A model generated the notes under the pieces. The model made no database searches and was not told the DNA's origin. It saw only the letters and a program-made list of their open reading frames with translations. A program made the position numbers and the translations under genes. Of a DNA stretch of 64,000 nucleotides, positions 29,663 through 55,168 are shown piece by piece (the first letter of the stretch is position 1; every line of letters begins with the position of its first letter). The stretch comes from an uncultured Colwellia sp. (GTDB taxonomy: Bacteria; Pseudomonadota; Gammaproteobacteria; Enterobacterales; Alteromonadaceae), in assembly GCA_913063325.1 (NCBI GenBank), contig CAJXYE010000001.1, forward strand, positions 62,001 to 126,000. Reading direction: 5' to 3'.

Positions 29663-29745
29663 TCATCTCCAGAATATGCTCGTCAAGTTTAGCGAATATG
29701 ATAAACTTAATTTAATTCCAGATGATTTAAAGTAAGTTGTTAACT

Positions 29746-30156
29746 ATGGTCAGTTCACTGCAAAGTCGATTAAAACAAACCATTGTAAGTTTGCTTACAG
29801 CTAAACTGGCTGATGTTGGTATTAGTACTAAAATAGTTTACTTATTTGGCTCTTATGCTTCGGGTACCGCGACTAGCGAAAGCGATATTGATATCGCTGT
29901 GCTTGGTAATAAAAAAACCCCATCATTAGCAAGATGGAAAATACAATCTGAACTTGCAGATGCACTCGGTTTCGATGTTGATTTAGTTGATTTACTTTGT
30001 GCGTCAACTGTCATGCAAAACCAAATAATTCACCATGGCCTTTGTCTTTATGAAACTGAGAATTCAGCGGCTCTTTTTGAAATGCAAATAATGTCAATGT
30101 ATCAACATTTGAATGATGAACGAGCTGACATTTTAGCTCAATTTATAAAGGGTTAG
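29746..30156 (+). CDS. mntA: MntA-type minimal nucleotidyltransferase antitoxin
   Basis: This 136-residue nucleotidyltransferase has the motif GSYASGTATSESDIDIAV (GSxxxG with a paired-aspartate SDxD) and a later aspartate in DVDLVDL. It pairs with the HEPN gene that follows seven bases later. In MntA-HepT systems the enzyme silences the HEPN RNase toxin by adding AMP to a tyrosine near its active site. I chose the ATG at 29746 over the TTG at 29737 because of the AAAGTAAG sequence upstream. The pair is bounded by REP arrays and is probably an acquired module. Confidence 0.87.
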   Translation: MVSSLQSRLKQTIVSLLTAKLADVGISTKIVYLFGSYASGTATSESDIDIAVLGNKKTPSLARWKIQSELADALGFDVDLVDLLCASTVMQNQIIHHGLCLYETENSAALFEMQIMSMYQHLNDERADILAQFIKG

Positions 30157-30162
30157 TAAATT

Positions 30163-30573
30163 ATGGATGATGTTGTTATTAATAAATTGGCGACAATTGA
30201 GCGATGTTTGGTGCGAATTAAAGAGGTATACCAACAGGCTGGTGATCAATTTATGTCTGATTATACTCGCCAAGACTCGATTATATTAAACTTACAAAGA
30301 GCCTGTGAAGCGGCAATTGATTTAGCCAATTATATTAATAAATTAAAAAAACTGGGTATACCACAAAGTAGCAGAGACAGTTTTGAACTGTTGCAAAGAG
30401 CCGGTTTGTTACCACTAGAGATCAGTGATAACTTGAAAAAAATGGTAGGTTTGAGAAATATTGCAGTACATGACTACCAAGAGCTCAATCTTGATATTGT
30501 TAAATTTGTTGTTGAAAACCACCTAGTTGATTTTCAGCATTTTGGTAAAGCAATTAAGTCCTTATTACTTTAG
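30163..30573 (+). CDS. hepT: HepT-type HEPN RNase toxin
   Basis: This 136-residue all-helical HEPN protein (DUF86/HepT family) carries the active-site motif RNIAVHDY, that is Arg-x4-His-x-Tyr, at about residues 102-109. The tyrosine is the residue modified by the partner nucleotidyltransferase in studied systems. It acts as an RNase that stops growth when not neutralised. It is translated just after mntA with an RBS-like GGGTTAG overlap and ends just before the second REP array. Confidence 0.87.
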   Translation: MDDVVINKLATIERCLVRIKEVYQQAGDQFMSDYTRQDSIILNLQRACEAAIDLANYINKLKKLGIPQSSRDSFELLQRAGLLPLEISDNLKKMVGLRNIAVHDYQELNLDIVKFVVENHLVDFQHFGKAIKSLLL

Positions 30574-31668: not shown

Positions 31669-32064
31669 ATGCGCAAAAATCATGGTTTTACGATGATCGA
31701 ATTACTCATCGTTATTGTTATTTTAGGTTTGTTAGCTTCATTAGTTGCTCCTAAGTTTTTCTCACAACTAAGCACTGCCGAGCGAGGCATTGCGTCAGCA
31801 CAAATGAATGCTTTTGAAACTGCGCTTGATACTTACCGATTAGATATGGGCAGCTATCCAGAAAAGTTAGAGCAACTTCGCAGCGGTGACCAACCTCGCT
31901 GGGACGGTCCTTACCTCCCTAAAGCTATTCCGATGGACCCTTGGGGAAATCCTTATATCTACACCACCCCAGGTGAAGAGGGAAACCCTTACAAAATTCA
32001 ATCGTATGGCGCTGATGGTAAACAAGGCGGCACTGATAATAATGAAGACATTATTCATAAATAA
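31669..32064 (+). CDS. gspG: Major pseudopilin, GspG-like
   Basis: This 131-residue type II secretion pseudopilin has a short leader MRKNHG, the prepilin cleavage site before FTMIELLIVIVILGLL, and glutamate at mature position 5. The C-terminal loop has DPWGNPY and the Asp-rich calcium site GADGKQGGTDNNED, both typical of GspG. I use the ATG at 31669, which gives a leader of normal length; the frame upstream adds 16 residues unlike any leader. It opens an operon of eleven genes running to 42314 and would form the body of the pseudopilus in the periplasm. Confidence 0.93.
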   Translation: MRKNHGFTMIELLIVIVILGLLASLVAPKFFSQLSTAERGIASAQMNAFETALDTYRLDMGSYPEKLEQLRSGDQPRWDGPYLPKAIPMDPWGNPYIYTTPGEEGNPYKIQSYGADGKQGGTDNNEDIIHK

Positions 32065-32141
32065 TCTCTGAATAATGGCGGCCAGAAAAACGTGAGTAAG
32101 CTAAGTAAGCAAGTTAAACAAATTAAGCAAATAAGCAATCT

Positions 32142-33794
32142 ATGCAATTAAGCGAATTATTAGTTGAGCAGTTTCAAATAACTGCTCAAGATTTATCAAA
32201 AGCTGAAAGTTACCAAAAACGTTTTGGTGGCCGTTTAGAGCAAATTCTTGTCAACATGGGCAGCTTGCCTGATGATCAAATCGCTCAACTTTACAGTGAC
32301 TATTTACAGTTACCGCTGTTGCAGTTAGAGCAGTTTCTCGATATTGAATTACCTCAAATTGATGATGAAGCATTAGCACTTTTATTAACTAATCAGTGGG
32401 TTCCTTTAGTCGTAGACGGAAATAATTGGCAATTTGCTTGCCGCTTCCCACTTGATTTAACTGTTAATGAATGGTTATCTCAACAAGATATACAGCCAAC
32501 AGTTTTCCTTGCCAATGAATCAGATATTCAAGCGTTAACGGCAAAGTTCGAACAAAATAATACCAATGAAGAAGAACATGAACTTGTTGGTGATGAAGAA
32601 GAGCGCTTACGTGAACTAGCTAGTGAAGCGCCAACGGTTAACCTGCTTAATTCTTTAATTACACGAGCGCTACGTCAAGGGGCATCCGATATGCATCTTG
32701 AACCTTATCAAGGTCGCTATCGCGCGCGATTTCGTGTTGATGGTGTTTTGCATGAAGCTGAAATGTTATCACCGCGCATGCAGTTACCCATTGTTACTCG
32801 CCTTAAGATCTTGTCCGGCATGGATATTGCTGAAAAACGTCGTCCACAAGATGGCAAAATAGAAATGAAAATTGCCAACCAAGAACTTGATATTCGAGTG
32901 TCGGCACTGCCGCTTAATGATGGCGAATCCATGGTGATGCGTTTTTTACGTAAAGATAACGTGCAATACGATATGTCGGTATTGGGATTATCCAGTGATA
33001 TTGAAGCCTTGATCCGAGAAGATATTAAAACTACCTCAGGCGTTGTTTTACTAACAGGCCCAACTGGCTCGGGTAAAACCACCACACTTTATACTTTTTT
33101 AAATGCATTAAATGATGATGATGTAAAAATCATTACCCTGGAAGATCCCGTTGAATATCAATTACCCGGTATCAATCAGGTGCAAGTTAACAGTGATATA
33201 GGTTTTGATTTCTCTGCTGGTTTACGTTCAATTGTTCGACAAGATCCTGACATTATCATGTTAGGTGAAATTCGAGATAAAGAAACCGCTCAAATTGCAT
33301 TACAGTCAGCACTAACAGGTCATTTAGTTTTCTCAACCGTGCATACTAATGATGCAGCCAGTGCTTATACGCGTTTGCTTGATTTAGGCGTAGAAGAGTT
33401 TTTGCTTAACGCCGCTTTGGTTTCTATTGTCGCACAACGTTTAGCGCGTAAAATTTGTCAGCATTGTTCAGTGCCTGCAGCAGATGCAGAGCAACTTATT
33501 GAAAAGTATCAACTACAAGACCTAGCTGATAAATTTGATTTAGCTGAAATTAAGCTGAGCAAAGGTACCGGTTGTGATAAGTGCGGCAATTCAGGCTACA
33601 AAGGCCGTATGGCAGTAATTGAATATTTAAACTGTGATGATGCTATCAAAGCGATGCCAAAAGATTCTGATTTTATTCCTAAAGCCAAACTGCATAATAA
33701 AGAGTTAAATCGACGTACTTTACTGGAAGATGGTTTTTATAAAGCAATTTTAGGTTTAACAACCATTGACGAAGTGGTTCGGATAGCAGGTTAA
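32142..33794 (+). CDS. gspE: Type II secretion assembly ATPase, GspE-like
   Basis: This 550-residue cytoplasmic ATPase powers the pseudopilus. It has an N-terminal N1E-type domain (residues 1-140), then GPTGSGKTTTLYT (Walker A, about residue 307), DPDIIMLGEIRD (Walker B) and TGHLVFSTVHTND (His box). A tetracysteine zinc site follows, with KICQHC and CDKCG. The stop overlaps the gspF start by one base. All catalytic motifs are intact. A type IV pilus PilB is the alternative by family, but the neighbours favour type II secretion. Confidence 0.93.
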   Translation: MQLSELLVEQFQITAQDLSKAESYQKRFGGRLEQILVNMGSLPDDQIAQLYSDYLQLPLLQLEQFLDIELPQIDDEALALLLTNQWVPLVVDGNNWQFACRFPLDLTVNEWLSQQDIQPTVFLANESDIQALTAKFEQNNTNEEEHELVGDEEERLRELASEAPTVNLLNSLITRALRQGASDMHLEPYQGRYRARFRVDGVLHEAEMLSPRMQLPIVTRLKILSGMDIAEKRRPQDGKIEMKIANQELDIRVSALPLNDGESMVMRFLRKDNVQYDMSVLGLSSDIEALIREDIKTTSGVVLLTGPTGSGKTTTLYTFLNALNDDDVKIITLEDPVEYQLPGINQVQVNSDIGFDFSAGLRSIVRQDPDIIMLGEIRDKETAQIALQSALTGHLVFSTVHTNDAASAYTRLLDLGVEEFLLNAALVSIVAQRLARKICQHCSVPAADAEQLIEKYQLQDLADKFDLAEIKLSKGTGCDKCGNSGYKGRMAVIEYLNCDDAIKAMPKDSDFIPKAKLHNKELNRRTLLEDGFYKAILGLTTIDEVVRIAG

Positions 33795-34996
33795 TGGCAA
33801 CTTACCTTTATAAAGCTTATGATAAATCGGGCGCTAAAACTGATGGGCAAATAGAAGCCAATGATCAGGTCATCGCTTTAGCCGAGCTTAAAAAACAAGG
33901 TTTATTGCCCAGCGAAATTAAAGAGTTTAAAGTCGCAGGTAATAGCGCTTTCAGCTTTAATCAAAAAGTATCACTAAGCGAACTCGAGTTTTTAACAGCA
34001 GAACTTAGCTTATTGCTTGAATCGGGTGTCCGCATCGATAAAGGCATCGATATAATCAAACGCACTAAAGCAAAACCGGCTTTAGCTAAATTACTGACTG
34101 ATATCAGCAATGGTATAAAAAAAGGTCAAAGTTTATCGGAGGCCTTTCGTGAGCACGATGATGTTTTTGACAACCTTTATTGTAACTTAATCGAGTTAGG
34201 TGAAGCCTCAGGTAACTTAAGTGAAATTTTTGCTGATTTAGCTAAAGATTTAAAATTTAAACGTGAACTGCAACGTAAAATAATTAGCTCATTGGCTTAT
34301 CCTTTAGTGATATTTTTTGTTTGTATTTTAAGTATATTCTTCATTTTTAATTTTATTATTCCAAAAATGTCGGCAATGTTTACTGACGTAGAAGCACTAC
34401 CTTGGTATACAAGCGCCATGTTGACCACAAGTGAATGGATGATAAATTACCAAGGTTTCTTAATCATAGGCATTATCCTCTCAATCATTGGTTTAATTAA
34501 GGCCAGTAAGCAACCAGCTTTTGTGCAATGGTGGCAAAATACCAGCTTAAAACTCCCTGTCATTGGCCATGCGGTTAAAACTGTTGAGCGTATTCGCTTT
34601 AATAGCGGTCTAGCTATGATGGTAAAAGCTGGCGTGCCAATTGACAAAGCACTTGGTTTATCTGCAGGTAATATTAAAAATCACACTTTAAGACGCGAAA
34701 TGGACATTGCTAAAAATAAAGTAAAAGCTGGTAGTGCGTTAACACCTGCGTTAAAACAAACCTCAATCTACCCAGATTTCTTTATTTCCTTATTAGAGGT
34801 AGGTGAAGAGTCAGGTAATTTAGAGCGCGTTTTTGATGAAATAGCCAACCGTTCACGCCAAGAATTTGAAAGTTGGACTGAGCGCATGACCACCTTACTT
34901 GAACCTTTAATGATTTTATTTATGGGCGGTTTCGTTGGAGGAGTGGTTGTAGTAATGCTGCTTAGTATGGTCTCTATTAATGAGATAGGGATGTAA
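33794..34996 (+). CDS. gspF: Type II secretion inner-membrane platform protein, GspF-like
   Basis: This 400-residue protein has the two repeated cytoplasmic T2SSF domains. The first has ELSLLLESGVRIDKGIDI, GQSLSEAF and NLIELGEASGNL. The second has LAMMVKAGVPIDKAL and LEVGEESGNLERVF. Three membrane helices lie near residues 170, 220 and 375. It couples the ATPase to pseudopilin insertion. The gene overlaps gspE by one base. A hairpin of ATTCCCGA and TCGGGAAT at 35016-35040 follows in the gap before the next gene. Confidence 0.92.
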   Translation: MATYLYKAYDKSGAKTDGQIEANDQVIALAELKKQGLLPSEIKEFKVAGNSAFSFNQKVSLSELEFLTAELSLLLESGVRIDKGIDIIKRTKAKPALAKLLTDISNGIKKGQSLSEAFREHDDVFDNLYCNLIELGEASGNLSEIFADLAKDLKFKRELQRKIISSLAYPLVIFFVCILSIFFIFNFIIPKMSAMFTDVEALPWYTSAMLTTSEWMINYQGFLIIGIILSIIGLIKASKQPAFVQWWQNTSLKLPVIGHAVKTVERIRFNSGLAMMVKAGVPIDKALGLSAGNIKNHTLRREMDIAKNKVKAGSALTPALKQTSIYPDFFISLLEVGEESGNLERVFDEIANRSRQEFESWTERMTTLLEPLMILFMGGFVGGVVVVMLLSMVSINEIGM

Positions 34997-35015
34997 CCCC
35001 GATGCTAATTATGTC

Positions 35016-35040
35016 ATTCCCGAAGTGTCATGTCGGGAAT
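35016..35040. repeat. Small inverted repeat inside the secretion operon
   Basis: ATTCCCGA and TCGGGAAT form an eight-base stem around a nine-base loop in the 124-base gap after gspF. It may be a diverged REP hairpin or a site of RNA processing in the operon. Confidence 0.45.
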
Positions 35041-35120
35041 CTATGTCAATTAATAGCTAGACCGTCAATGAAAACACCATGAGGATATCTGGTGCTGAAT
35101 AATTATAAGCGTAATACCTA

Positions 35121-35594
35121 ATGAATATACATCAGGTTAAAGATAGTGGTTTCACCTTAATTGAGTTAATGGTGGTGATGTCAATCGTGGCATTGCTAAT
35201 GACGATGGTCGGGCCATTAGCAATTAATGCGGTTGACAAAGCGAATGCGAAACAAGAAATGTTAACCATGAAAAATTGGTTAAGAAAAATTAGCTATCGT
35301 GCTTTTACTACCGGTAATAGCTATCAATTAAAATTAGCCGGCAAGAAAGCAGAGCTTTTTCTTACGTTAAATAATAACATTCGAGAAGATGAACGACCAA
35401 ACTCAGCATTAATTACTCATAATTTTGAAACATTATTTTTTCAACCGCAAATACTCACTTATAGCGCTAAAGGTTTTGTTAGCCCAACCTTTGTTGAAGG
35501 TACTTATCGTGATAAGAAATTGCAATTAGATTTGAATGCCTGGGTAAATGGAGCAACACCAGTAGTTGAAATTATGAGAACAATAACACCATGA
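35121..35594 (+). CDS. gspH: Minor pseudopilin, GspH-like
   Basis: The product has 157 residues with a leader MNIHQVKDSG, cleavage before FTLIELMVVMSIVALLMTM, and Glu at mature position 5. The rest has no strong motif but is predicted to be mostly beta, as in GspH. Position in the operon, just before three further minor pseudopilins, gives the assignment; sequence similarity alone says only type IV-like pilin. It overlaps the next gene by four bases (ATGA). Confidence 0.8.
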   Translation: MNIHQVKDSGFTLIELMVVMSIVALLMTMVGPLAINAVDKANAKQEMLTMKNWLRKISYRAFTTGNSYQLKLAGKKAELFLTLNNNIREDERPNSALITHNFETLFFQPQILTYSAKGFVSPTFVEGTYRDKKLQLDLNAWVNGATPVVEIMRTITP

Positions 35595-36049
35595 AAAAAC
35601 TCGCTACATCATCACGCGTTTCAACTGGTAGGAACTCAGGGTTCACCTTAATTGAGGTCATGGTTGCTTCAGTGATTCTATTTTCAGTTATTGCTACTGT
35701 TTCGATGATATATAGCGGTGCTTTTATTAGTAGCGAAAAAGCCAATAATCATATTAATCTTTCTGCGGTTTTACCATCTGTACTTGCCACAATCCGGCAA
35801 GATATTCGCTCGCAAGGAAACGTTAATATTTCTCAACTTAAGCAACAATCTTCAACTTGGCAAGTTAATTACCATTGGCAAGCAGATTTAATAGAACAAA
35901 AATCAGCACCAGAAAAGTTTGATGTTGATTCGGGAAAACTTGTCACACCTCCAGCAAAATATAAATTATGGCAAGTGGTATTAATACTTGAACGAAATGG
36001 TGTAACTAAACAATACCAGTTTAATGAACTAAGTTGGACCGATGAATAA
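35591..36049 (+). CDS. gspI: Minor pseudopilin, GspI-like
   Basis: The product has 152 residues with a 17-residue leader ending SG before FTLIEVMVASVILFSVIATV. The GspI-like VMVA pattern after Glu5 favours GspI, which nucleates the tip complex with GspJ and GspK. It overlaps gspH by four bases and gspJ by eight. The C-terminal half is diverged from canonical GspI. Confidence 0.75.
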   Translation: MKKLATSSRVSTGRNSGFTLIEVMVASVILFSVIATVSMIYSGAFISSEKANNHINLSAVLPSVLATIRQDIRSQGNVNISQLKQQSSTWQVNYHWQADLIEQKSAPEKFDVDSGKLVTPPAKYKLWQVVLILERNGVTKQYQFNELSWTDE

Positions 36050-36761
36050 GTTGAAGACAAATCACTCAAGAATGCTGACAAAATCAATTCATCATAGCGG
36101 TTTTACCCTTATAGAGTTGATGATTTCAATCTCTATATTGAGCTTATTGCTTTTTACTGGCTCTTATACCTACAGTTTAATGTCTGAGCGGTGGAATAAA
36201 GAATTAGGTCAGTTTGCTAAATCAGCACAAAATGGTAAACATTTATTGGTGTTACAACGAATGCTTGAGGGTGTGCAAACGTTCGTTGTGGTTGATGAAG
36301 AGCAAAAGCCTTCTTTTTTCTTTATAGGTGATAAAAATAGCCTACTTGCCGTTAGTCGATCAGGGCTTTTTAGTGACGATTATCCTGAAATATTTCGTTT
36401 AACTACAATAGAAAAAGAAAACGGTAAAGTTGATTTGTTTTATCAATCATTATCTACTCAAAATTTTTTACTTACGGGTACAAATCAAAACATCGAATTT
36501 ACCAAACAACTAATACTTTTTTCAGATTTAGATCGCGTGAGTTTTAACTATTTTGGCTGGTCCAGTTTTATTGATAAAAATTTAGAAAGTGACGAAAAAA
36601 AACACAAACAATGGTTTGAACGGTTTTCAGGTATTGATAATCAAATTATGCCGGAAGTGTTTAATCTTACATTAGTCAATTCTGGACAAGAACTGAGCTT
36701 CTCTATACCTTTAGATACAAACTCTGAACGCTGGTTATCACCTTATATGGGGGATAACTAA
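36042..36761 (+). CDS. gspJ: Minor pseudopilin, GspJ-like
   Basis: The product has 239 residues with a leader ending HSG before FTLIELMISISILSLLLFTG. GspJ proteins are the larger of the two small tip pseudopilins and lie between gspI and gspK, as here. It overlaps gspI by eight bases and gspK by one base. The body lacks other recognisable motifs, so the name rests on length and order. Confidence 0.75.
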   Translation: MNKLKTNHSRMLTKSIHHSGFTLIELMISISILSLLLFTGSYTYSLMSERWNKELGQFAKSAQNGKHLLVLQRMLEGVQTFVVVDEEQKPSFFFIGDKNSLLAVSRSGLFSDDYPEIFRLTTIEKENGKVDLFYQSLSTQNFLLTGTNQNIEFTKQLILFSDLDRVSFNYFGWSSFIDKNLESDEKKHKQWFERFSGIDNQIMPEVFNLTLVNSGQELSFSIPLDTNSERWLSPYMGDN

Positions 36762-37714
36762 TGTCATTGTTGAGCCAATACTCTTATCTACCTCAAAAAC
36801 AGCAAGGTATTGCCTTAATTCAAGTCCTATTGATAACTGCAATATTATCGATTTTGGCGGTTTATTTAACTAACACAGCAAAAGAACAAGTGAAAATAGC
36901 ACAATGGACTAATGATAAATCACAGGCATTAGTCAATTTACATAGTGCTGAAGCACGATTGATTTTTAGTTTGTTAACACAACGAAAAATAGTCACATCA
37001 CAAAATAACGCTAATGGTAAAAGTAACGCAGTAGGGGATATTTTAGGGAGTAGTGTAGAGAGCATAACTCAGCGCTGGAATTTTTTCGCCAAGCCATTTT
37101 ATCTATCTGAGCAAGTAATGGTAGCTATTCAAGATCAGGCTGGACTGGTACATGCGCAATATCCTGACCGAGATGTTTTGGATAAACTGTTTGTTGAGCA
37201 AGGGCTGGGTATGGTAGAGGTGAATGAACTTATTGATAACTTGTTAGATTGGCAGGATCTTGATAGTATCTCCCGAGCTAATGGTGCAGAGACGTCAGCT
37301 TATGCGGGGTTAATTCGTAATGGTGCTATACCAGATGTACATGATTTTAGTTTTATTAAAAAAATAACGCCTGAGCTGCTTGAGTTATTACTAAAAACCA
37401 CCACTATCTATCGGCAAGGTCCGTTTAACCCAACCAATGTACCAACTGAGCTTTTGTATGCACTCACTAACGAAAATGTAGCAAAGCAGGTCATATTGTT
37501 AAGAGAGAATGGCCAATTAACAAAAACAAATTTTAGCCAGTTAACGGGTATCGTTGAAGATGATGATACTTTTTTTTATCCATCTAACTTCTTATCAATA
37601 AAATTAACCAGTAAAGTTGGTGAGTCGAAAGTACAAAAAGAAATGACAATACAAGTAATACCTTATGCAAAGGCTGATCAGTCACCTATTAATTTTTTTT
37701 CTAATCGTGGTTAA
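36761..37714 (+). CDS. gspK: Tip pseudopilin, GspK-like
   Basis: This 317-residue protein has a leader of about 18 residues ending QQ before GIALIQVLLITAILSILAVY. The usual Glu5 is replaced, which is characteristic of GspK, the capping tip subunit. The large middle domain has helical segments (GMVEVNELIDNLLDWQD, DVHDFSFIKKITPELLELL) of the alpha-domain type found in GspK. It overlaps gspJ by one base and precedes gspL by three. Confidence 0.82.
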   Translation: MSLLSQYSYLPQKQQGIALIQVLLITAILSILAVYLTNTAKEQVKIAQWTNDKSQALVNLHSAEARLIFSLLTQRKIVTSQNNANGKSNAVGDILGSSVESITQRWNFFAKPFYLSEQVMVAIQDQAGLVHAQYPDRDVLDKLFVEQGLGMVEVNELIDNLLDWQDLDSISRANGAETSAYAGLIRNGAIPDVHDFSFIKKITPELLELLLKTTTIYRQGPFNPTNVPTELLYALTNENVAKQVILLRENGQLTKTNFSQLTGIVEDDDTFFYPSNFLSIKLTSKVGESKVQKEMTIQVIPYAKADQSPINFFSNRG

Positions 37715-37717
37715 ATT

Positions 37718-38971
37718 GTGAAAACAGAATCTTTATTATCAAACGATGCCGCTGAAATACAACAAAGTTTACTCACTAATACTTTGCCTAAAAGCTTCAA
37801 ACAATTATTATCTACCTTTGGCGGTTATTATAACGGTCAAATGTACCGTTTTTCTTTAGATGCCGAGCAAAAATTAACCTTACAGCTGGTAAAGCAAAAT
37901 GATTTTTCGGCGCTAATCGTTATTGTGGCTCGTCAATTTTATCACGAGCAAGCCAAAACTTATCCGATTGAAAATAAAACTGAGCTTAAAAAGCTATTGG
38001 CGTTAGAATTTTCTGACAACGAAAATACCTATTATCACTTGTGGGGATATAAAGAAGGTACGAGCCAAGTCAATATTTGGCAATATAATCTACAAGTACC
38101 CTCAGCGTTGTTGAAATTGCCAGAGACATTACTACTCGCATTAACCGCCAAAGAAAACCAAGTTATTGAAATAAATAATAGCGAGCATAAAAAACAGTCA
38201 CTATTCGTCGGCCGCTCTGGTGATTTAATTTATTCGATAATAAAAAACTCAGTGATCAACTCAAGTCAGCTGTTTGCCATGTCGATAGGTATTGGAAAAA
38301 CGCCACAAGACCGTATTGTTGCAGTAAATGATAACGCTGAACAACTAGCGAGTGGCATAAAGCAATTGTCTTTGCCAATTATTAGCGCTTTTATTCAAAA
38401 GCCTAAAGTCGAAAGTAGACTACAACTATTAAAAAACATCGCCTTGCCATTTTTTATCGTTCTGGGTCTTTATTTTTCTGCAAGCAGTGTTTTTTTAACG
38501 TACAAACAACAGAACTTACAGCAAAGTTTAGCGAGTCAAAGCAGTGAAGTTTCAGTTGCGTTAGAGCGACAGCAAGCTTTTGATCAGCAACTGACACGGT
38601 ATTCACAACTACAAACGTTTTTAAGTAGTCAGCAAGCTAGTTCGCCCTTATGGTTCGTGATGGCCGATTTATTCCCCCAAGCAAAATTTACCAATATTCG
38701 TATTGCGGCTAACCGTTTTGTTATTAGAGGTTCTACCGAAAAAGCGACTGACTTGCTTGAACTACTGAGTAACATGCCGCAAGTAATCGATGCAAAATTT
38801 GACTTTCCTACCAGAAATAGCCGGAATCAAGAAGTATTCGTTATTAGTTTTAACTTATTACCGTTACAAGATGAAAGCGAAGCGATAAAGTTGGCAAATG
38901 GGCTAATGTCTAACAAGGCAAACAGTAAGACAAACAATGTAATACAGAACAAGGAACGTAATAATGGCTGA
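37718..38971 (+). CDS. gspL: Type II secretion protein, GspL-like
   Basis: The product has 417 residues with a large cytoplasmic N-terminal domain (1-235), one membrane helix near 240-260 (LPFFIVLGLYFSASSVF), and a periplasmic C-terminal domain with a coiled-coil stretch and ferredoxin-like end. This is the GspL or PilM-PilN-type layout that links the ATPase to the platform. The N-terminal domain is diverged, so actin-like motifs are not clear. The start is GTG at 37718, and the end overlaps gspM by eight bases. Confidence 0.78.
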   Translation: MKTESLLSNDAAEIQQSLLTNTLPKSFKQLLSTFGGYYNGQMYRFSLDAEQKLTLQLVKQNDFSALIVIVARQFYHEQAKTYPIENKTELKKLLALEFSDNENTYYHLWGYKEGTSQVNIWQYNLQVPSALLKLPETLLLALTAKENQVIEINNSEHKKQSLFVGRSGDLIYSIIKNSVINSSQLFAMSIGIGKTPQDRIVAVNDNAEQLASGIKQLSLPIISAFIQKPKVESRLQLLKNIALPFFIVLGLYFSASSVFLTYKQQNLQQSLASQSSEVSVALERQQAFDQQLTRYSQLQTFLSSQQASSPLWFVMADLFPQAKFTNIRIAANRFVIRGSTEKATDLLELLSNMPQVIDAKFDFPTRNSRNQEVFVISFNLLPLQDESEAIKLANGLMSNKANSKTNNVIQNKERNNG

Positions 38972-39560
38972 ACTTAAACAACATGCTTGGTTATTGTCCC
39001 TAGTCGCAATATTGATTATTGCTAAATTTATTGTTGTCCCGGTATTTGACTGGCAAGCCGAAATATTGGCTGAAATAACTTTATTAGAAAAACAACAAAG
39101 TAAAATAACGAAAGTATTAGGACAGAAAAATAATACTACTAGTGCAAATAGTGGGTTAATGGCGGCATTAAAACAGGCAGAAGGCTTGTTCTTTCCGTTT
39201 AAAACAGAAACCAGTTTTAAATTAACCCAACAGAAAATGTTAGAAGTTCTATTGGCTAAATATGATATAAGATCGCAACATATAGGCTGGCAAACAGCAA
39301 CAAACTTTAAAGAGCTGGCAGTGATACGTTACCCAATACAATTACGCTTCACGGGTAAAACCAAAGATGTCATTGATTTTATGGTGGCACTAGAAGCTAA
39401 AAATGAACTTATAGAAATTAACGATTTTAATTTGTCACTAAAAAGGCAATCAGAACAACGCTTAGGTAATATCAATGGTCGGTTGACTTTACATTTTTTT
39501 GTTAATGAAGCAGCAATGAATATTTCTCAAGAAAGTACGGTAAGTGGGGAATCATCATAA
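38964..39560 (+). CDS. gspM: Type II secretion protein, GspM-like
   Basis: The product has 198 residues with a short cytoplasmic tail, one membrane helix (residues 7-26), a coiled coil (LEKQQSKITKVLG) and a periplasmic ferredoxin-like domain, the layout of GspM and PilO. It overlaps both neighbours (gspL by eight bases, the next gene by one). It would stabilise GspL in the inner membrane. Confidence 0.75.
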   Translation: MAELKQHAWLLSLVAILIIAKFIVVPVFDWQAEILAEITLLEKQQSKITKVLGQKNNTTSANSGLMAALKQAEGLFFPFKTETSFKLTQQKMLEVLLAKYDIRSQHIGWQTATNFKELAVIRYPIQLRFTGKTKDVIDFMVALEAKNELIEINDFNLSLKRQSEQRLGNINGRLTLHFFVNEAAMNISQESTVSGESS

Positions 39561-40108
39561 TGGTAACGGAATTTAAAAGACTATTAAGCAATAAGTTGAG
39601 TATTGCTGTTATGGCATTAACTTTATTTTGGTTAATTGCAGATGGTACAACTCGTTTAACCTCACAAAATATAGTTCATAAGCAAAGTGATGAGCTAACT
39701 GAGATAACTCCGCTAGTGTTTCCTCAATTAACGACTAATCTAGTTGAGCAATTAAATTCAGCGTACCAACAATATAACGTTGATAAAGACCCCCTCTTAG
39801 ACTCGCAAACAGGTTTGTCAGCAGCAGAGCAAGCTAAACAGCAAGGTGAATTAACTTCTGTTTTTATCGATGATAATAAATTAGAACTTAAAGCCATTAT
39901 TGTAAACAAAGGCATAAACCAGAATGATGCCGATACCAAAGCTTTAATATTAACTAGTAAGATTAAATCTGGTGAGCAACAAATTGAAAAGTTTAATAAT
40001 AACAGCCAAGTATACGGTTATCTCTTAGTTATAAAAAACAATACTCAAGTGATATTAACTAAGCAACAGCCACAAGGGTTACAAAAAATAATATTGACTA
40101 TGTATTAA
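39560..40108 (+). CDS. Short GspC/PilP-like inner-membrane protein
   Basis: The product has 182 residues with one membrane helix near the N-terminus (IAVMALTLFWLIAD). A periplasmic region ends in a small beta domain around LKAIIVN, KALILTSK, YGYLLVIKNNTQVIL and GLQKIILTMY. This pattern recalls the homology region of GspC and PilP, which contacts the secretin. There is no PDZ domain, and gspC normally opens the operon rather than sitting before the secretin. I infer that it does GspC's job of joining the inner-membrane platform to GspD. The family is not recognised with certainty. Confidence 0.6.
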   Translation: MVTEFKRLLSNKLSIAVMALTLFWLIADGTTRLTSQNIVHKQSDELTEITPLVFPQLTTNLVEQLNSAYQQYNVDKDPLLDSQTGLSAAEQAKQQGELTSVFIDDNKLELKAIIVNKGINQNDADTKALILTSKIKSGEQQIEKFNNNSQVYGYLLVIKNNTQVILTKQQPQGLQKIILTMY

Positions 40109-40220
40109 AGACAGCTTTTTGAAAAGTAAAAGCGAAAATAAAAGTGTCAGGCAGTAGGGGAAAGTGGTAAAACGTTTACCTGATCTAAAACTTACAGCGC
40201 TAACTATTAAAAATAACTAA

Positions 40221-42314
40221 ATGAAAAAAATAACTCCAATGACTCAAATAAAAAACTTCAGCCTCGGCTTTATTATCGCAATAACCTTAAGTGCTTGCGC
40301 CAGCAACTCGGAAGATAAATTTACCCCGAATAAATCCTATTTGCAACAACCAACGGCGGAACAAGGTGAGTCAAAAGTTAACAAGCTAAGCATTATTAAC
40401 GCTGACTCTTTGACCACAACGCAACAAAGTGAAGAGTCGTTAGGTATGACCTACCTAAGTCCGTTAGCGAGCCAAACAAGTAATACTAAAAAAACGGTAA
40501 ACCTGACTGAAAAATTTAGTGATAGTAAGTTAGTGCAGTTAACTGCAGATAACTTACCATTAAAAGACTATCTGCATTACGTCATGGGCGACTTACTTGG
40601 CTTGAGCTATATCTTGGGGGAGAAAGTACAGGCGGACAATAAAGCGGTTACCTTGAACCTGCAACAAGATATTAGTCAGCGTAAATTATTCACCGTCAGT
40701 GAAGGTTTATTAGCTGAGCGTGGTTATGTCATTCGTTTAGATGACGGTATTTATTATATTCACCAAGCGGAGGGAACCGGCGCTAAAGGCGAAGTGGCTT
40801 ACGGTTATGGTAATAAAGTTGAGAATGTTCCTAATACCTCTTTAAATATTATTCAATTCGTTCCTTTTGTTTATGGTTATCAAGGGCAGTTGCAGCGTTC
40901 TATTACAGCATTGGCTTCGGTTAAGGTGACGGCGGACATAGCTCGTAGTTTGTTTATTATCAAAGGCAAACAGCGAGAAGTTATTAAAGCCCTCGATTTT
41001 ATTGCTTTGATGGATACGCCTGCTCTACGAGATAGACAAATAGGCGTATTTAAAACAACCTATATATCAACCGATGAAGTTAAAGATAAACTGCCAAAAT
41101 TACTGCTTCAAGAGGGGTTGTCAGTCTCGGCTGAACTACAAGCCAATAAAGCGGTTTCTTTAGTTACCTTAGACAGAACAGGTACCATTGTATTTTTTGC
41201 CAATAGCAAAAGTGTACTCGAAAGAGTTAATTTTTGGTTGTTGCAATTAGATCAGCCTCCTAGTGGTACTCAGTTACAATACTTTATTTATAACCCTCAA
41301 TATTCTCGGGCCACAGATCTTGGCGAAAGCTTAAATTTACTTATTGGTGGCAGTGCTAGTTCAATACCATCGTCAACAACTTCTGCCGCGTCTCAGAATA
41401 ATAAATCCTCTTCGGCCACTAAAAGTAATAGCCGCAATAAAGCTTTTGCGGTATCTAATGACAATATGAGCTTGGTGGTTGATGTACGAGCCAATGCTTT
41501 AATTTTCCATACTACAGGTGACGAATATCGTGATTTATTGCCATTGATTAAACGTTTAGATGTAATGCCCAAGCAAGTGATTCTTGAAATGATGATAGCT
41601 GAGGTAACCTTAACGGATTCCTTTAAACAGGGCGTTGATTTTGTATTGACTAATCAAGGGGGGGCTGCACAAATAGGTGGCTTTAACTTAAGCAGCGGTA
41701 GTGGTGGACTAACCTATTTGTTATCCGGTAGCCAAGGCTCATTGACTTTTAATTTATTACAATCGAATACCAATGTGAATGTATTATCTCGACCAACGCT
41801 ATTGGTTAGAGATGGGGTAACCGCAAGTATTACCGTCGGTGATGATATTCCAACCGTAGGTGAAATTATTACCGACCCAGTAAATGGCAGTCAAACCTCG
41901 GTAGTTTACCGTAAAACGGGAGTGGAGCTAAGTGTAACGCCCACCATTAATGCCCGTGGTGTGGTGATTATGGAAATTGAGCAAAAAATTAGTAATCAAA
42001 CGGCGGGTGATGAATCGGTTGCCGGCTCTCCTATTATTTTTGAACGCGGAATTTCAACCGAAGTGGTGGCTGAAAGCGGCCAAACCATCGTATTGGGTGG
42101 TTTAATTAGTGAGAATAGAACGAAAAATAAGCGCAGTGTACCGTTCTTTTCCAGTATCCCTTTCTTAGGTAATTTATTTAACGCCGAAGATGATACCAAA
42201 AATAAAACTGAATTGGTGGTTTTAGTTACGCCAAGAATCATCGAGTCCTCAGATGAATGGGAAGAGGTTAAAGCAAAGTTTACCGCTCAATTCGACTCTT
42301 TGAGTATAGAGTAA
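40221..42314 (+). CDS. gspD: Secretin, GspD-like lipoprotein
   Basis: This 697-residue outer-membrane secretin has a lipobox-like signal (ITLSACASNS), N-terminal N0/N1 domains (NLPLKDYLHYV near residue 112), and a Ser/Asn-rich linker around 380-410. The C-terminal secretin domain shows VNVLSRPTLLVRDG, ITVGDDIPTVG and GISTEVVAESGQTIVLGGL. The fold ends with KTELVVLVTPRII. Secretins of this type form the 15-fold outer-membrane gate. Being a lipoprotein it could reach the outer membrane without a pilotin. It ends the operon after a 112-base gap. Confidence 0.92.
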   Translation: MKKITPMTQIKNFSLGFIIAITLSACASNSEDKFTPNKSYLQQPTAEQGESKVNKLSIINADSLTTTQQSEESLGMTYLSPLASQTSNTKKTVNLTEKFSDSKLVQLTADNLPLKDYLHYVMGDLLGLSYILGEKVQADNKAVTLNLQQDISQRKLFTVSEGLLAERGYVIRLDDGIYYIHQAEGTGAKGEVAYGYGNKVENVPNTSLNIIQFVPFVYGYQGQLQRSITALASVKVTADIARSLFIIKGKQREVIKALDFIALMDTPALRDRQIGVFKTTYISTDEVKDKLPKLLLQEGLSVSAELQANKAVSLVTLDRTGTIVFFANSKSVLERVNFWLLQLDQPPSGTQLQYFIYNPQYSRATDLGESLNLLIGGSASSIPSSTTSAASQNNKSSSATKSNSRNKAFAVSNDNMSLVVDVRANALIFHTTGDEYRDLLPLIKRLDVMPKQVILEMMIAEVTLTDSFKQGVDFVLTNQGGAAQIGGFNLSSGSGGLTYLLSGSQGSLTFNLLQSNTNVNVLSRPTLLVRDGVTASITVGDDIPTVGEIITDPVNGSQTSVVYRKTGVELSVTPTINARGVVIMEIEQKISNQTAGDESVAGSPIIFERGISTEVVAESGQTIVLGGLISENRTKNKRSVPFFSSIPFLGNLFNAEDDTKNKTELVVLVTPRIIESSDEWEEVKAKFTAQFDSLSIE

Positions 42315-42484
42315 TAGCGATTTCTCAATTGGATAAATTTATTCAATAATAACAACTTATTTTAGAACTAAATTAATGGTTGAATTGGCTTTAAATCTAG
42401 GGTAAATTTTTATCGGTCATTTAGTTGTAAAAGTGGTTTTGCACAAAAAACACCCAAGTATTTGTTTTTTATTTATATTGGGGC

Positions 42485-42512
42485 TTGACAAGTGGGAATC
42501 ACTGGGTAAACT
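42485..42512 (+). promoter_or_regulatory. Sigma-70-type promoter with a long leader for the surface protein gene
   Basis: TTGACA at 42485-42490 is an exact -35 box, with TAAACT at 42507-42512 as a -10 after 16 bases. The leader of about 110 bases contains a hairpin of GTCGC and GCGAC (42527-42540) and a second one pairing CATGAAA with TTTCATG close to the start. A strong AAAGGA lies before the ATG. A long structured leader is common for very abundant proteins. The gap from 42315 to 42627 holds no gene. Confidence 0.6.
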
Positions 42513-42627
42513 ATTGGACGTTAGAAGTCGCTTTGGCGACGGCCTAAGTGTTATATAACGTAATAAAAAACCATGAAAGTTGAAAAAATTCAGCTCTCAT
42601 ATTTCATGAAATAAAGGATATTTAAAA

Positions 42628-44151
42628 ATGTTTAAAAAAACTCTATTAGCATTAGCTTTAACAACTGCTGCTACTGCAAATGCTGGTGTAATTGCACTTA
42701 CTAACTCTACAGGTACAAGTTCTGTAATCGCTACTGTATCTACTTGTGATGGCGCTTCTACTGGTACAGTAGGTACAATCTGTGTTGCCTCTGAAACAGC
42801 TATTCTTGCGGAAGCGGGTCAATCAACTCCAGTTCCTTTTGATTTTAATGATGGTGTTAACTATCATAATACCGATGGTGCAGGTACTTTGATTCAATAT
42901 GATCCAGCGTCAACTGTTCCAGTAGGTGCACGTCTTACCTTTACCTTGGCTGACGGTTATTTTGCTGATGCAAACTATGATTTAGTTCTTGCTACTAATG
43001 CTGCTACTGTAGTGGCTTCTTTAGCCAATGTGATTAAAGATGCCGATGATAATGTTACTGCAATTGAATTGACAATTGGTGTTCAATTAGCTGGTGGTAC
43101 TACTTATAACCTTTCAAATGGTGCCGGCGCTGCCGCTGCAGCTGATGAATCTGTAGCTATTGATACTATATCAATTGAACTTAAAAATGGCACTGCTGCT
43201 GGCGGTACTGTTGCAATAAGTGCAACTGCTCGTGATAATTTAGGCAACTTGTCTTCAGCAGCTGCACCTGCTATCAAGCTTTTACAATTCGAAAAGCAAT
43301 TTGTTAAAGCAACTGCTTTTGCTGCCGATAACGCGGTTGTTGATGTAGCTCAATTACGTAAAGATTTTGATACTACAGATGCTGCTGATACAACGGGTGG
43401 TGATTTAAATACTACAACTAACCTTACTATGGATATTACAGATAATGTTGCTACATTAGATGTTGCTGTTGCTGCGGCTTCTGTAACTGTTGCTCCAACA
43501 GTAACTGATACAGGTAGTTTTGCTGGCATTAACCATTCAACTACAGTTACTACTGGCTTAACGAATGCTGCTACATCACAACTTGATGGCGTAGATCTTG
43601 TTCAAAACACAACGGATCTAACTAAAGCGACTGTACCTGCTGTAGCTGGAACAACTGCTTTTGATTCTGGCTTAGTTTTAGAAATCAATAACGATGATGC
43701 TCAAAATACACGTACAGTTTCTGTAAGTTCAGTACTTGATCTTACAGCAGCTAACGCAGCATTTGTTGGTGAAACTATCGATTTCGGTACGGTAACAACA
43801 TTCTCATTAAATGGTAAAAATGCACAAGTACCATATATGCCTTTCGGCGATAATACTCAAATCATCTTACGTGCGACAAATACAAGCACTCAAACAGGTG
43901 ACTTAAGTGTTCGTTACATGGAAGAAGGTTCACAAACTACATGGAAAGATCTTGGTGTAGTTGGTACTGTTACTCCTGGTGTTAATAACATTGCTGATGT
44001 TATTCTAGCTGCAATTAAATCTGATTCTGGTTTAACTAAAGGTAAATTAGCTTTAGATATTACAGTTAACGCTCCTTCTGCTAACGTTAACTTCTATGCT
44101 GCATACAAAGTTGTTTCAGAAATGGACCGTGGTTTCGTAGGTAACTTCTAA
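42628..44151 (+). CDS. Abundant secreted Ala/Thr-rich protein, possible S-layer (Slr4-like) subunit
   Basis: The product has 507 residues with a signal peptide MFKKTLLALALTTAATANA. The mature part is rich in Ala, Thr, Val, Asp and Gly, strongly acidic, with short beta-strand-like repeats and no membrane anchor. Only two cysteines (40 and 52) occur. Codons are strongly biased to GCT, GGT, ACT and GTT, which is usual for highly expressed genes. It has its own promoter and terminator and lies just after a type II secretion operon. The marine S-layer protein Slr4 of Pseudoalteromonas has the same kind of composition and length. Homology is my inference from memory and needs a database check. It could also be another secreted matrix protein. 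Confidence 0.6.
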   Translation: MFKKTLLALALTTAATANAGVIALTNSTGTSSVIATVSTCDGASTGTVGTICVASETAILAEAGQSTPVPFDFNDGVNYHNTDGAGTLIQYDPASTVPVGARLTFTLADGYFADANYDLVLATNAATVVASLANVIKDADDNVTAIELTIGVQLAGGTTYNLSNGAGAAAAADESVAIDTISIELKNGTAAGGTVAISATARDNLGNLSSAAAPAIKLLQFEKQFVKATAFAADNAVVDVAQLRKDFDTTDAADTTGGDLNTTTNLTMDITDNVATLDVAVAAASVTVAPTVTDTGSFAGINHSTTVTTGLTNAATSQLDGVDLVQNTTDLTKATVPAVAGTTAFDSGLVLEINNDDAQNTRTVSVSSVLDLTAANAAFVGETIDFGTVTTFSLNGKNAQVPYMPFGDNTQIILRATNTSTQTGDLSVRYMEEGSQTTWKDLGVVGTVTPGVNNIADVILAAIKSDSGLTKGKLALDITVNAPSANVNFYAAYKVVSEMDRGFVGNF

Positions 44152-44180: not shown

Positions 44181-44211
44181 AAAAAGCGAGCCTCGGCTCG
44201 CTTTTTTTATA
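44181..44211 (+). terminator. Strong Rho-independent terminator of the surface protein gene
   Basis: AAAAAGCGAGCC and GGCTCGCTTTTT form a 12-base stem around a short loop followed by seven T, about 30 bases past the stop codon. Confidence 0.9.
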
Positions 44212-45682: not shown

Positions 45683-46990
45683 ATGAAAATTGCCGTATTC
45701 GTTGATAAATTCCCCGTACGCTCGCAAACTTTTGTCATTAATCAAGTGCTTGGTTTATTGCAATTAGGTGCTGATGTCACTGTGTTAGCCTTAGCCAGTG
45801 AAACTCAGCACAGTAAAGCTGAGCTTGATGCCATACATCCTAATTTAAGCCAAAGAACTGTTTTTTTATTGTCTGAGATATCTTCCCCCTACGCTAAGTT
45901 GGTATCACGAGTCTTGAGCCTTGTGTCTGGTTTGTTAAGGGTAAAAACCAGGAAAAGAGTTACTACTGCGCTGCAAAAAAAGTTTGGTCATCAGGCTAAA
46001 AGCCTACTACTGGCGGCCATTGCCAGTAAGTTCTCAACGCCATTATCTTTTGATGTCATCTTATGTCATTTTGGTCAAAATGGTGTTGTTGCCAATAAGT
46101 TACGTGAAATCGGTGTACTTGAAGGTAAAGTTACCACCATATTTCACGGTTTTGATATTTCAGCTAAATCGGCTTTAGCAAAACATCAACTTGATTATAA
46201 AGCATTGTTTGCACAAACAGAGTTGATGCTGCCGATAAGCGATAAATGGAAGAATAAACTGATAACCCTTGGCTGTAAGCAAGAGAAAATAACGGTTCAT
46301 AGGATGGGTATTGATTTAGGGCTTTTTGAGTTTGCTTATCAACCGAAACTGAAACCGAAACCTGAAGCATCTCTCACTCAACCTCAATTGCTGGATCTTG
46401 AAGCCCAACCCTTTAACAATAAATGTTTAACCTTATTTACTGTGGCACGTTTTTCAGAAAAAAAGGGTCTTGAGTATGCTATTCGCGCGTTAACGCACTT
46501 ACCTGAAGAGGTTAATTGTCATTATTTTATTGGTGGTTTTGGCGAGTTAGAGCAAAGTTTAAAGCAACTTGTCATTGAGTTAAATTTAACGAATAAAGTA
46601 ACCTTTTTAGGCCCTTTAACGTCGATCGAAGTAAAGAATCATATGCAAACCGCTGATGTATTTATTCAGCCGAGTATAACGGCTGATAATGGTGATATGG
46701 AAGGCGTACCTGTGGCCATAATGGAAGCTATGGCTGTTGGTGTGCCAGTAATATCGACATTCCATAGTGGTATACCGGAATTGATAACCCATAATGAACA
46801 TGGCTTATTAGCCAAGGAAAGAGATACGCGAGCATTGGCTGATAATATTAGCTGCCTTTATCGAGACGATGGAAACTTGGCTACTAAGTTTCGTCAAAAC
46901 GCGCGTTTACGAATTGAAGCAATAGCCGATGTAGACAAACTAAACCAAGGTTTACTTGAGCTGCTGACCGCTTTGGTCAATAAGCGCTAG
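45683..46990 (+). CDS. Glycosyltransferase family 4 (WcaL-like)
   Basis: This 435-residue GT4 enzyme is similar in layout to WcaL/AmsK-type exopolysaccharide transferases. The start KIAVFVDKFPVRSQTFVINQ is typical of that subgroup. The C-terminal nucleotide-sugar half has FTVARFSEKKGLEYAIRA and DMEGVPVAIMEAMAVGVPVI with the family's Glu-x7-Glu motif. It is cytoplasmic and adds a sugar to a lipid-linked repeat unit. It opens the polysaccharide cluster running to 58892. A short run of proline-lysine pairs (KLKPKPE) near residue 225 is unusual. Confidence 0.87.
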   Translation: MKIAVFVDKFPVRSQTFVINQVLGLLQLGADVTVLALASETQHSKAELDAIHPNLSQRTVFLLSEISSPYAKLVSRVLSLVSGLLRVKTRKRVTTALQKKFGHQAKSLLLAAIASKFSTPLSFDVILCHFGQNGVVANKLREIGVLEGKVTTIFHGFDISAKSALAKHQLDYKALFAQTELMLPISDKWKNKLITLGCKQEKITVHRMGIDLGLFEFAYQPKLKPKPEASLTQPQLLDLEAQPFNNKCLTLFTVARFSEKKGLEYAIRALTHLPEEVNCHYFIGGFGELEQSLKQLVIELNLTNKVTFLGPLTSIEVKNHMQTADVFIQPSITADNGDMEGVPVAIMEAMAVGVPVISTFHSGIPELITHNEHGLLAKERDTRALADNISCLYRDDGNLATKFRQNARLRIEAIADVDKLNQGLLELLTALVNKR

Positions 46991-47053
46991 TCAATATTGA
47001 CAATAGAAGTATGCCTTCCAAGTAGACAGTAAATAAAGGAAAGGGATTGACCT

Positions 47054-48124
47054 TTGAAACTCGACCAGCCAAAAGTTGTAACCTTTGATGTTACTTACCG
47101 ATGTAGCCTTGCTTGCAATATGTGCCAAACAAAATGGTATCAGCAAGATGACCGTTTTAATTCAACGTTGTCAAAAGAGCAGATAATTCAAACCGCCAAA
47201 AGGCTTAATGTGGAAGAAGGGGCGACTTTCTTTCGCTTTTTGGGCGCTGAGCCACTTTTGCACCCTGATATTTTTGAAATTATTAGCGAGGTGTCGAAAA
47301 TAGGTAAAACATGGTTAACAACCAATGGCACGTTAATCACTGATAAAGTCGCTAACCAGTTGGTGACGTCAGGTTTGACTGATTTATGTGTGTCTTATCA
47401 TTCACCCAATGAGCACTATACGGGGGTGTCAGCAGAGAAAATAACAACAAGAACCATTAAAGGTGTTCAAGCAATAGAGTCAGCCAAGCAGCTTTTATCA
47501 CGATCTTTAAACGTAACTGTCACTAATGTTATAACGCCTGCTAATTATACCAACTTGCAAGCGGTGGTAAATCTATTTCATGGCTTGGATGTAAAGTTAG
47601 AGTTTTTTGCTGTGCACTCGATGCGTTCTCATTTGAATAATAGTTACTGGAATGGTCAAAAAGCTGAGTATTTAGGGCCAAATATTGATGAACCAAAAAT
47701 GTTGAACCTATGGCAAAAAATGGTGTTTCGTTATCAGTTGCAAAAAATACGGGCTAAATATAAACGTGCTGGTATTAGGCTACTTTATTTTATAACCAGC
47801 CAATTAGTTTATCTCTATGAAGAATTACAGGCCATGTTGGTCTATACACCTTGCACTAAGCCAACCCAACGAATTGGTGTTAGAGCGGATGGTAAAATAT
47901 TTGCCTGTGAATTTTTAAAAACGATTGATATGGGCAGTATAACAGATGACAATCTTTGGAATACCGCTAAGCGCGAACAGTTAGTAGTATTAACGCAAAG
48001 TGCCAAACTTGAGATATGCCGTCAGTGTAATCGACAGTCACTATACCGACCTCACGTTTGGCCGCTTCGTTTTGTTCATAAGCTCTCAGCTATATTTAGT
48101 CGCGTAGTTAGCTTTACTAAATAA
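47054..48124 (+). CDS. Radical SAM protein with SPASM-like C-terminus
   Basis: The product has 356 residues. DVTYRCSLACNMCQTKW near residue 15 holds the CxxxCxxC cluster ligands. FRFLGAEPLLHPD follows, and near the C-terminus further cysteines appear in YTPCTKP, KIFACEF and LEICRQCN, as in SPASM-type auxiliary cluster domains. The start is TTG at 47054 after AAAGGAAAGGG. Radical SAM proteins within polysaccharide clusters are known but rarely characterised; a sugar or peptide modification is possible. Its target is unknown. Confidence 0.8.
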   Translation: MKLDQPKVVTFDVTYRCSLACNMCQTKWYQQDDRFNSTLSKEQIIQTAKRLNVEEGATFFRFLGAEPLLHPDIFEIISEVSKIGKTWLTTNGTLITDKVANQLVTSGLTDLCVSYHSPNEHYTGVSAEKITTRTIKGVQAIESAKQLLSRSLNVTVTNVITPANYTNLQAVVNLFHGLDVKLEFFAVHSMRSHLNNSYWNGQKAEYLGPNIDEPKMLNLWQKMVFRYQLQKIRAKYKRAGIRLLYFITSQLVYLYEELQAMLVYTPCTKPTQRIGVRADGKIFACEFLKTIDMGSITDDNLWNTAKREQLVVLTQSAKLEICRQCNRQSLYRPHVWPLRFVHKLSAIFSRVVSFTK

Positions 48125-48225
48125 CAATTACTTCAATAGTTTTAGCAGTTTCAATCGTTGAATCTAGACTCAAATAAGTAAAAGCTTTATCCTATAGCGC
48201 ATCAATTGCTGCTAGTGTCTCTTTA

Positions 48226-48945: not shown

Positions 48946-48957
48946 AAATAGAAGGTG

Positions 48958-50319: not shown

Positions 50320-50342
50320 CCAATGCATAAGGTAAATATCGG

Positions 50343-51149: not shown

Positions 51150-51153
51150 TTAG

Positions 51154-51218
51154 TGTGGCACTTGTTGTTTGAGGTGCTGAAACAAGTTCAGCAAGACGGT
51201 AGTGGTTCATCATGACAC
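51154..51218 (+). repeat. REP-like fragment
   Basis: The second-hairpin half of the REP unit (GAGGTGCTGAAACAAGTTCA) is recognisable just after the preceding gene, without the first half. The rest of the 229-base gap to 51378 holds the 15-base tandem repeat noted separately and no gene. Confidence 0.75.
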
Positions 51219-51240
51219 TGTTGTCATCTGTATGTATCAT

Positions 51241-51281
51241 TCACTATTAAGTTTATCACTATTAAGTTTATCACTATTAAT
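51241..51281 (+). repeat. 15-bp tandem repeat
   Basis: TCACTATTAAGTTTA is present twice exactly and a third time in part. It lies about 100 bases before a glycosyltransferase gene and could affect its expression by slippage, but nothing proves that. Confidence 0.75.
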
Positions 51282-51378
51282 AGGTTTCTAGTTTTGTTGC
51301 TTTAAGTTAGAATGTCGCTCTTTATAAACTTAGCGCCTTGAATGATAGAGTAGCGCCTTACCTTGGTTTTAAATTTAC

Positions 51379-55158: not shown

Positions 55159-55168
55159 TTATTGCCTT

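Follow-up and report, generated by a model that had tools for sequence, protein, structure and literature searches.

The window considered here is a stretch of 64,000 nucleotides from an uncultured Colwellia sp. (assembly GCA_913063325.1, contig CAJXYE010000001.1, positions 62,001 to 126,000), and it carries a compact operon for a type II secretion system (T2SS) followed by the gene for a 507-residue protein of the Slr4 family of surface-layer (S-layer) proteins, referred to below as the cargo (Table 1). An earlier note on this DNA had described eleven genes in the order G-E-F-H-I-J-K-L-M-C-like-D with the cargo gene behind them, and all of these open reading frames (ORFs) were found. The spacing is as tight as had been claimed: neighbouring operon genes overlap by as much as 8 bases or lie up to 124 bases apart, and 313 bases separate the secretin gene from the cargo gene. 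The assignment of the genes to a T2SS stood in large part: G, E, F, K and D were recognised by T2SS models, an N-terminal motif marks H, I and J as pseudopilins, and M falls below the cut-off of its XpsM model, but searches of profile libraries gave no family-model match for L and the C-like gene. A secretin, an assembly ATPase, a platform protein and a major pseudopilin are present in one operon, as expected of a T2SS, with E and F below the equivalog cut-offs. In profile comparisons the window K scored 97.3% against canonical GspK, and the window M scored 91.6% against the M of the Aeromonas-type locus discussed below and 0.4% against canonical M. The window L matched neither canonical GspL (0.1%) nor the L of the Aeromonas-type locus (0.8%), and the C-like family did not match canonical GspC (2.0%), so that L and C-like are labels given by position. 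The lipobox of the secretin is LSAC, and its cysteine (C26) is unchanged in 18/18 aligned secretins. The N-terminus of GspE (32142-32300) resembles the MshE-type domain that binds cyclic di-GMP, at 36.2 bits slightly under the cut-off of 38.

Table 1. Genes and other features of the T2SS operon and the adjoining cargo gene, with positions in the window.
Feature	Position	Strand	Basis or remark
gspG-like major pseudopilin	31669..32064	+	TIGR01710 132.9 bits, cut-off 88.85 passed
gspE-like assembly ATPase	32142..33794	+	TIGR02533 510 bits, under cut-off 630.25
gspF-like inner-membrane platform protein	33794..34996	+	TIGR02120 313.8 bits, under cut-off 424
gspH-like minor pseudopilin	35121..35594	+	N-methylation motif PF07963; weak TIGR01708
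gspI-like minor pseudopilin	35591..36049	+	N-methylation motif PF07963; position
gspJ-like minor pseudopilin	36042..36761	+	N-methylation motif PF07963; position
gspK-like minor pseudopilin	36761..37714	+	PF21687 38.1 bits (cut-off 26.2); NF037980 60.4 bits (under 130)
gspL-position gene	37718..38971	+	label from position; kept in operon of relatives
gspM-like gene (XpsM type)	38964..39560	+	NF040576 31.8 bits, under cut-off 60
short GspC/XpsN-position gene (C-like)	39560..40108	+	label from position; 88% profile match to Orf2 of Aeromonas-type Sps locus
gspD-like secretin with lipobox	40221..42314	+	PF00263 146.2 bits, over Pfam cut-off; TIGR02517 287.3 bits, under 351.35
sigma-70-like promoter candidate for cargo	42485..42512	+	TTGACA-16-TAAACT, 10/12 consensus matches
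Slr4-family S-layer protein (cargo), 507 aa	42628..44151	+	PF19526 90.7 bits, E 1.4e-25
C-terminal domain of cargo, residues 381-507	43768..44151	+	common to other cargo families
intrinsic terminator after cargo gene	44181..44206	+	11-pair stem and T run

The likeness to Slr4 proposed for the cargo was borne out by the family model PF19526, whose cut-off of 25 bits was passed in an alignment covering cargo residues 122-501. Identity to 22 aligned relatives from the genus and order is 14-30%, and five metagenome proteins reach 50-74%. A Sec-type signal was read by eye from the sequence. The protein had been called highly expressed-looking, and its effective number of codons is 31.5 as against 37.9-53.9 in the eleven operon genes. 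It had also been credited with its own promoter and terminator; of these the terminator is convincing, but the promoter candidate is of a type no commoner than chance (35 promoter-like sites against 41.0 in shuffles), and terminator-like sites as a class were not above chance either (9 against 9.9).

The family PF19526 is present in 7 of 39 genomes of the genus and 18 of 394 genomes of the order, which together make 24 distinct genomes, and T2SS genes of this kind adjoin Slr4 in 24/24, the earlier note having asked whether the cargo always travels with the operon; no Slr4 match away from such an operon was found in those 24 genomes. In G036 a contig end leaves just the C-like gene and the secretin gene, and the G188 contig stops after D; in g61 the secretin gene is placed between those for H and I, and Slr4 lies upstream in divergent orientation, and in G267 (locus L070) an Aeromonas-type gene order stands beside the Slr4-positive protein. 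The window secretin scores at least 467 bits in 17 of the 394 order genomes, all of them Slr4-positive, the eighteenth Slr4-positive genome being G267. Among the 79 named loci listed, some of which duplicate genomes with G handles, 35 have a secretin of at least 760 bits and 34 of these have an adjoining Slr4, the remaining one (L128) lying at a contig edge. Several Slr4 genes stand at one locus in L056 (G410, with three in tandem), L107 and L111, and the Slr4 gene of G090 (L068:3365-4911) is split into two ORFs and is either broken or misassembled. We put at about 85% the probability that the window locus encodes an Slr4-type S-layer protein exported by the adjoining T2SS.

The occurrence of Slr4 beside a T2SS and the proposal of a dedicated exporter are already published for related bacteria. 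In Pseudoalteromonas tunicata, Slr4 forms a square S-layer, which disappears when the gene is deleted. The T2SS operon directly upstream was suggested to be its dedicated exporter, and marine Gammaproteobacteria were reported to keep the pairing (Ali et al. 2020, PMC7821379). The arrangement in the window is the same, with G, E, F, K and D in a T2SS operon and an Slr4-family gene immediately after it, and differs in that the window cargo is a divergent member of 507 residues, likened to the P. tunicata protein through the family and the published description. No secretin mutant of an Slr4 system was found in the accessible text of published accounts of Slr4. The AnnoView study shows Slr4 with upstream T2SS genes, repeats the idea of a dedicated exporter and describes an insertion of MNT and HepT genes near this locus in Cognaticolwellia mytili (PMC11094555). 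The window has such a pair as well, an MNT nucleotidyltransferase (PF18765) and a HepT-like protein (PF01934) at 29737-30573, but it lies upstream of gspG and not between T2SS genes; because these two genes occur in both, the window species may be the same as or near C. mytili. The Sps/VapA locus of Aeromonas (PMC4413209), represented here by L070, likewise has the secretin last, the S-layer gene next and a T2SS of the same clade, but it runs E-F-G-H-... where the window runs G-E-F-H-..., and the published locus sits in an O-antigen cluster. L070 was judged to be of Aeromonas type from its gene order and from the lengths of E, F, G, H and M, which equal those of the published table, whereas those of D, L, Orf2 and the cargo differ, and its VapA-like cargo passes the Slr4 Pfam cut-off at 56.7 bits. 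No account of Slr4 and VapA as related was found in the accessible literature; a paper that names both treats them as separate in its accessible text.

In trees of E, F and D combined, a single clade holds the T2SSs adjoining Slr4, VapA (the Sps genes) and three further cargo families described below (cargoA, cargoB and cargoC), together with those of L076, L077, L120 and L121, and methanotroph, giant-neighbour, alphaproteobacterial and canonical systems lie outside it. Support for the clade in a selection of 57 rows was 1.0 (FastTree) and 99 (IQ-TREE quick Shimodaira-Hasegawa-like approximate likelihood ratio test), with IQ-TREE warnings of two long branches meeting (canonical and mannose-sensitive haemagglutinin rows) and of uneven composition; in a further selection of 39 rows with bootstrap the window T2SS shares a clade of 25 rows with the Aeromonas-type Sps genes, supported at 100/100. 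The S-layer gene npdA of Paracidovorax and Delftia also adjoins a gsp cluster (PMC10765051), and NpdA-like matches were obtained in 15 of 369 genomes of a class sample, with T2SS genes in the stretch at four of nine places inspected (six genomes). The five T2SSs that adjoin NpdA-like genes belong to another branch than that of the window, and a single origin of S-layer T2SSs that includes them was rejected by the approximately unbiased test (p 0.000119), in which fewer than half of the columns were filled for three of the five NpdA rows and the grouping was made in knowledge of the first tree. Since the NpdA-associated systems lie elsewhere and a forced single clade was rejected, T2SSs adjoining S-layer genes appear to have arisen at least twice. 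A search for earlier phylogenies of T2SSs and S-layers with a dedicated T2SS found AnnoView alone, in a coverage that leaves out most subscription journals and so does not show absence.

Where a related secretin occurs without Slr4, a different secreted-looking protein tends to be its neighbour: 18 of the 20 clade loci inspected that have no clear Slr4 have one, and in the other two (L080 and L082) no cargo could be resolved. The cargoA family (L071-L073, L119, L122 and L126) comprises proteins of 581-596 residues, which in L071-L073 have four cysteines beyond residue 20; L072 and L126 come from a single genome, whose L072 copy was the one scanned with Pfam. A DsbA-like lipoprotein adjoins cargoA in five of the six loci (L071, L072, L073, L122 and L126) and was not found for L119, and its presence beside a cargo with cysteines suggests a private disulfide helper. 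There are 183 cargoA homologues with E up to 0.001, and among the 120 listed are hypothetical proteins of Pseudoalteromonas, Shewanella, Thalassotalea, Colwellia and Vibrio; five of the 120 carry a precomputed Slr4 label. The cargoB family is found in L074, L075, L078, L079 and L085, cargoC in L081 and L086, and L076, L077 and L121 each have a cargo of their own. In L083, L084 and L087, T2SS operons of a branch outside the S-layer clade adjoin giant ORFs of 1142-1421 residues.

A new hint from the present analysis is that one C-terminal domain is common to otherwise unlike cargoes beside these T2SSs, and no description of it as common to these families was found in the accessible literature. 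When Slr4 proteins are compared in pairs, identity over the last 127 residues exceeds that over the remainder of the mature protein. A tail profile built from Slr4 only was searched against 4267 ORFs of the collected loci and gave, beyond 64 clear Slr4 rows, 17 matches with E up to 0.05, of which 16 are secreted neighbours of in-clade T2SSs from 15 distinct genomes (the L076 cargo among them) and the remaining one is a fragment of Slr4; an unrelated protein follows at E 0.081. Such a profile is less circular, but the loci searched had been chosen by secretin or Slr4. In profile comparison with Slr4, cargoA reached 98.2% and cargoB 97.5%, both over the tail alone, the VapA-like protein 95.9% over most of its length and L077 a weak 61.6%. 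When the 394 genomes were searched for the domain, all 32 strong matches (E 3.2e-9 or better, 28 genomes) lay in the T2SS loci that had been fetched and none outside them. This search is partly circular, since 11 of the 26 profile rows came from sample loci and no fewer than three others from named copies of sampled genomes, and the absence of strong matches elsewhere is a less circular point; nine weaker rows had E of 0.001-0.0084, one of them the third Slr4 of G410. A window-like secretin (E up to 1e-50, with two candidates scored in each genome) occurs in 43 genomes, of which 28 have the domain. Six of the other 15 genomes were inspected: G115 and G123 have cargoC, G078, G116 and one of two G381 loci have giant neighbours, and neither G060 nor the second G381 locus yielded a cargo that could be resolved. 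It had seemed plausible by eye that cargoC shares the domain, but this was rejected when the profile test gave 0.1-0.2%. The same test gave no tail-domain match for the giant neighbours, and none for NpdA-like proteins, which match at 23-36% at the N-terminal end instead. Three cargoB loci contain a second ORF that matches the domain (L074:1912-3318, L075:16750-18147 and L079:304-849), secreted-looking in the first two. The contig of L121, with its in-clade T2SS and a cargo bearing the tail domain, is labelled as a metagenome-assembled genome of Deltaproteobacteria, which could reflect transfer or a binning error.

The predicted structure of cargo residues 371-507 has a mean predicted local distance difference test score of 88.7, and in the model residues 381-507 appear to share a beta-sandwich fold with the ASRT/ASRAH superfamily of small-molecule-binding proteins. 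Members of that superfamily have a conserved Trp where strand 1 begins and a near-invariant Asn at the end of strand 2 (PMC2739507). In the window cargo an Asn of this type, N418, ends strand 410-418, and it is found in 72 of 75 rows; a Trp precedes strand 1 of the modelled domain by a few residues in 19 of 23 Slr4 rows and in 1 of 16 rows from other cargoes. The likeness is one of fold only and, because a match between sequence profiles is absent, the tail domain is not filed as an ASRT/ASRAH member.

In the mechanism that we propose, the cargo would cross the inner membrane by its Sec-type signal and be moved from the periplasm outward by the adjoining, separate T2SS through a lipidated secretin belonging to that system. 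Outside, the lattice would be built by the variable N-terminal and middle part (about residues 23-380), and the conserved C-terminal domain would tether the subunit to the cell surface, most likely via lipopolysaccharide or capsular sugar. The sugar tether is offered tentatively, and three considerations point to it, namely the polysaccharide genes downstream in the window, the position of both the published Aeromonas locus (PMC4413209) and L070 (by reading of its genes) in O-antigen clusters, and a review that speculates on a link with the O-antigen of homogeneous length in S-layered Aeromonas (PMC3658858). The polysaccharide locus of the window (45683-58892) has genes for a Wzx-like flippase (PF01943), a sulfotransferase (PF03567), an NKWYS protein (PF10364) and a Wzz-like protein below cut-off, as well as glycosyltransferase-like and radical-SAM-like genes by reading. 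Several observations weigh against this mechanism. The other T2SS of the genome, described below, could in principle export Slr4; cargoC, though T2SS-linked, shows no trace of the domain; the Foldseek E-values behind the ASRT likeness are about 0.01, and neither a profile search of PDB, which did not return 1nc7 or 2iia, nor the Pfam matches of 26 members gave any ASRT. Finally, the domain could equally be a module for T2SS recognition or for assembly.

The last point leads to the main rival, in which the C-terminal domain is an export signal or docking module recognised by this T2SS lineage and not a surface anchor. The confinement of all 32 strong matches to T2SS loci would be expected of such a module, as would the lack of the tail in NpdA-like proteins beside T2SSs of another branch and the alignment of cargoA and cargoB with Slr4 over the tail only; moreover 21 of the 28 domain-linked T2SSs are rows of the clade in the 57-row tree, the other seven being placed by secretin score only. 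Nevertheless we consider it rather less likely than not, given that cargoC shows no such domain and yet has systems within the clade, and that the predicted fold is like that of proteins for which sugar binding has been proposed. In older work on Aeromonas, a C-terminally truncated S-layer protein was reportedly exported but not anchored. It is also conceivable that in this species the cargo makes no lattice and, though of the Slr4 family, is a secreted protein of the biofilm matrix or an adhesin. Its divergence from most relatives would allow this, and P. tunicata also sheds Slr4 into its biofilm matrix, but there the protein makes a square lattice, which the deletion mutant lacks (PMC7821379). 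The operon and the codon bias fit mass production, and we attach little weight to this alternative.

T2SSs usually serve several enzymes, and the operon might be a general second T2SS with Slr4 as one client among several. Related systems of methanotrophs, with the secretin last and no obvious cargo downstream, speak for this. The earlier note had based its one-cargo system in part on the secretin gene standing last, and that order does not by itself point to such a system: the systems of Methylococcaceae run E-F-G-H-I-J-K-L-M-N-D, and the ORFs of at least 200 residues listed within 5 kb downstream include no obvious cargo but housekeeping-looking genes, which we take to be rpiA-like and ilvA-like. 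The note had also named a second complete gsp operon carrying all export as a finding that would count against dedication. The genome does have a canonical T2SS operon in C-to-N order (G000:C22:2009-13989), with D, E, F, G (by TIGR01710), H and K assigned by profile, L by PF05134, and C, I, J, M and N by reading ORFs, but it is not shown to carry Slr4; the genome has six secretins and one PF06750 prepilin peptidase. As this operon is canonical, the two systems fit a division of labour in which the general role is left to it. That general role being already filled, and Slr4 adjoining T2SS genes in all 24 Slr4-positive genomes examined while 18 of 20 other clade loci have a secreted-looking neighbour, a many-client system seems improbable. 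The linkage supports the idea of a one-cargo system for a surface layer, and the T2SS beside Slr4 would, on the strength of gene arrangement, be dedicated to it.

A wider proposal, which we rate a little short of an even bet, is that one monophyletic T2SS lineage has specialised for surface layers with exchangeable cargoes. Slr4, VapA and at least three unnamed families would differ in much of the lattice part and share a C-terminal beta-sandwich that ties the layer to polysaccharide (or acts as a T2SS recognition module). To our knowledge, how a T2SS recognises its substrates and how S-layers are attached in Gram-negative bacteria are both open questions. With the cargo next door and one tail domain in unlike cargoes, both would be testable by simple deletions. 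The proposal also predicts unrecognised S-layers, for example among the hypothetical proteins of the cargoA family, for which an adjoining T2SS was checked in six loci.

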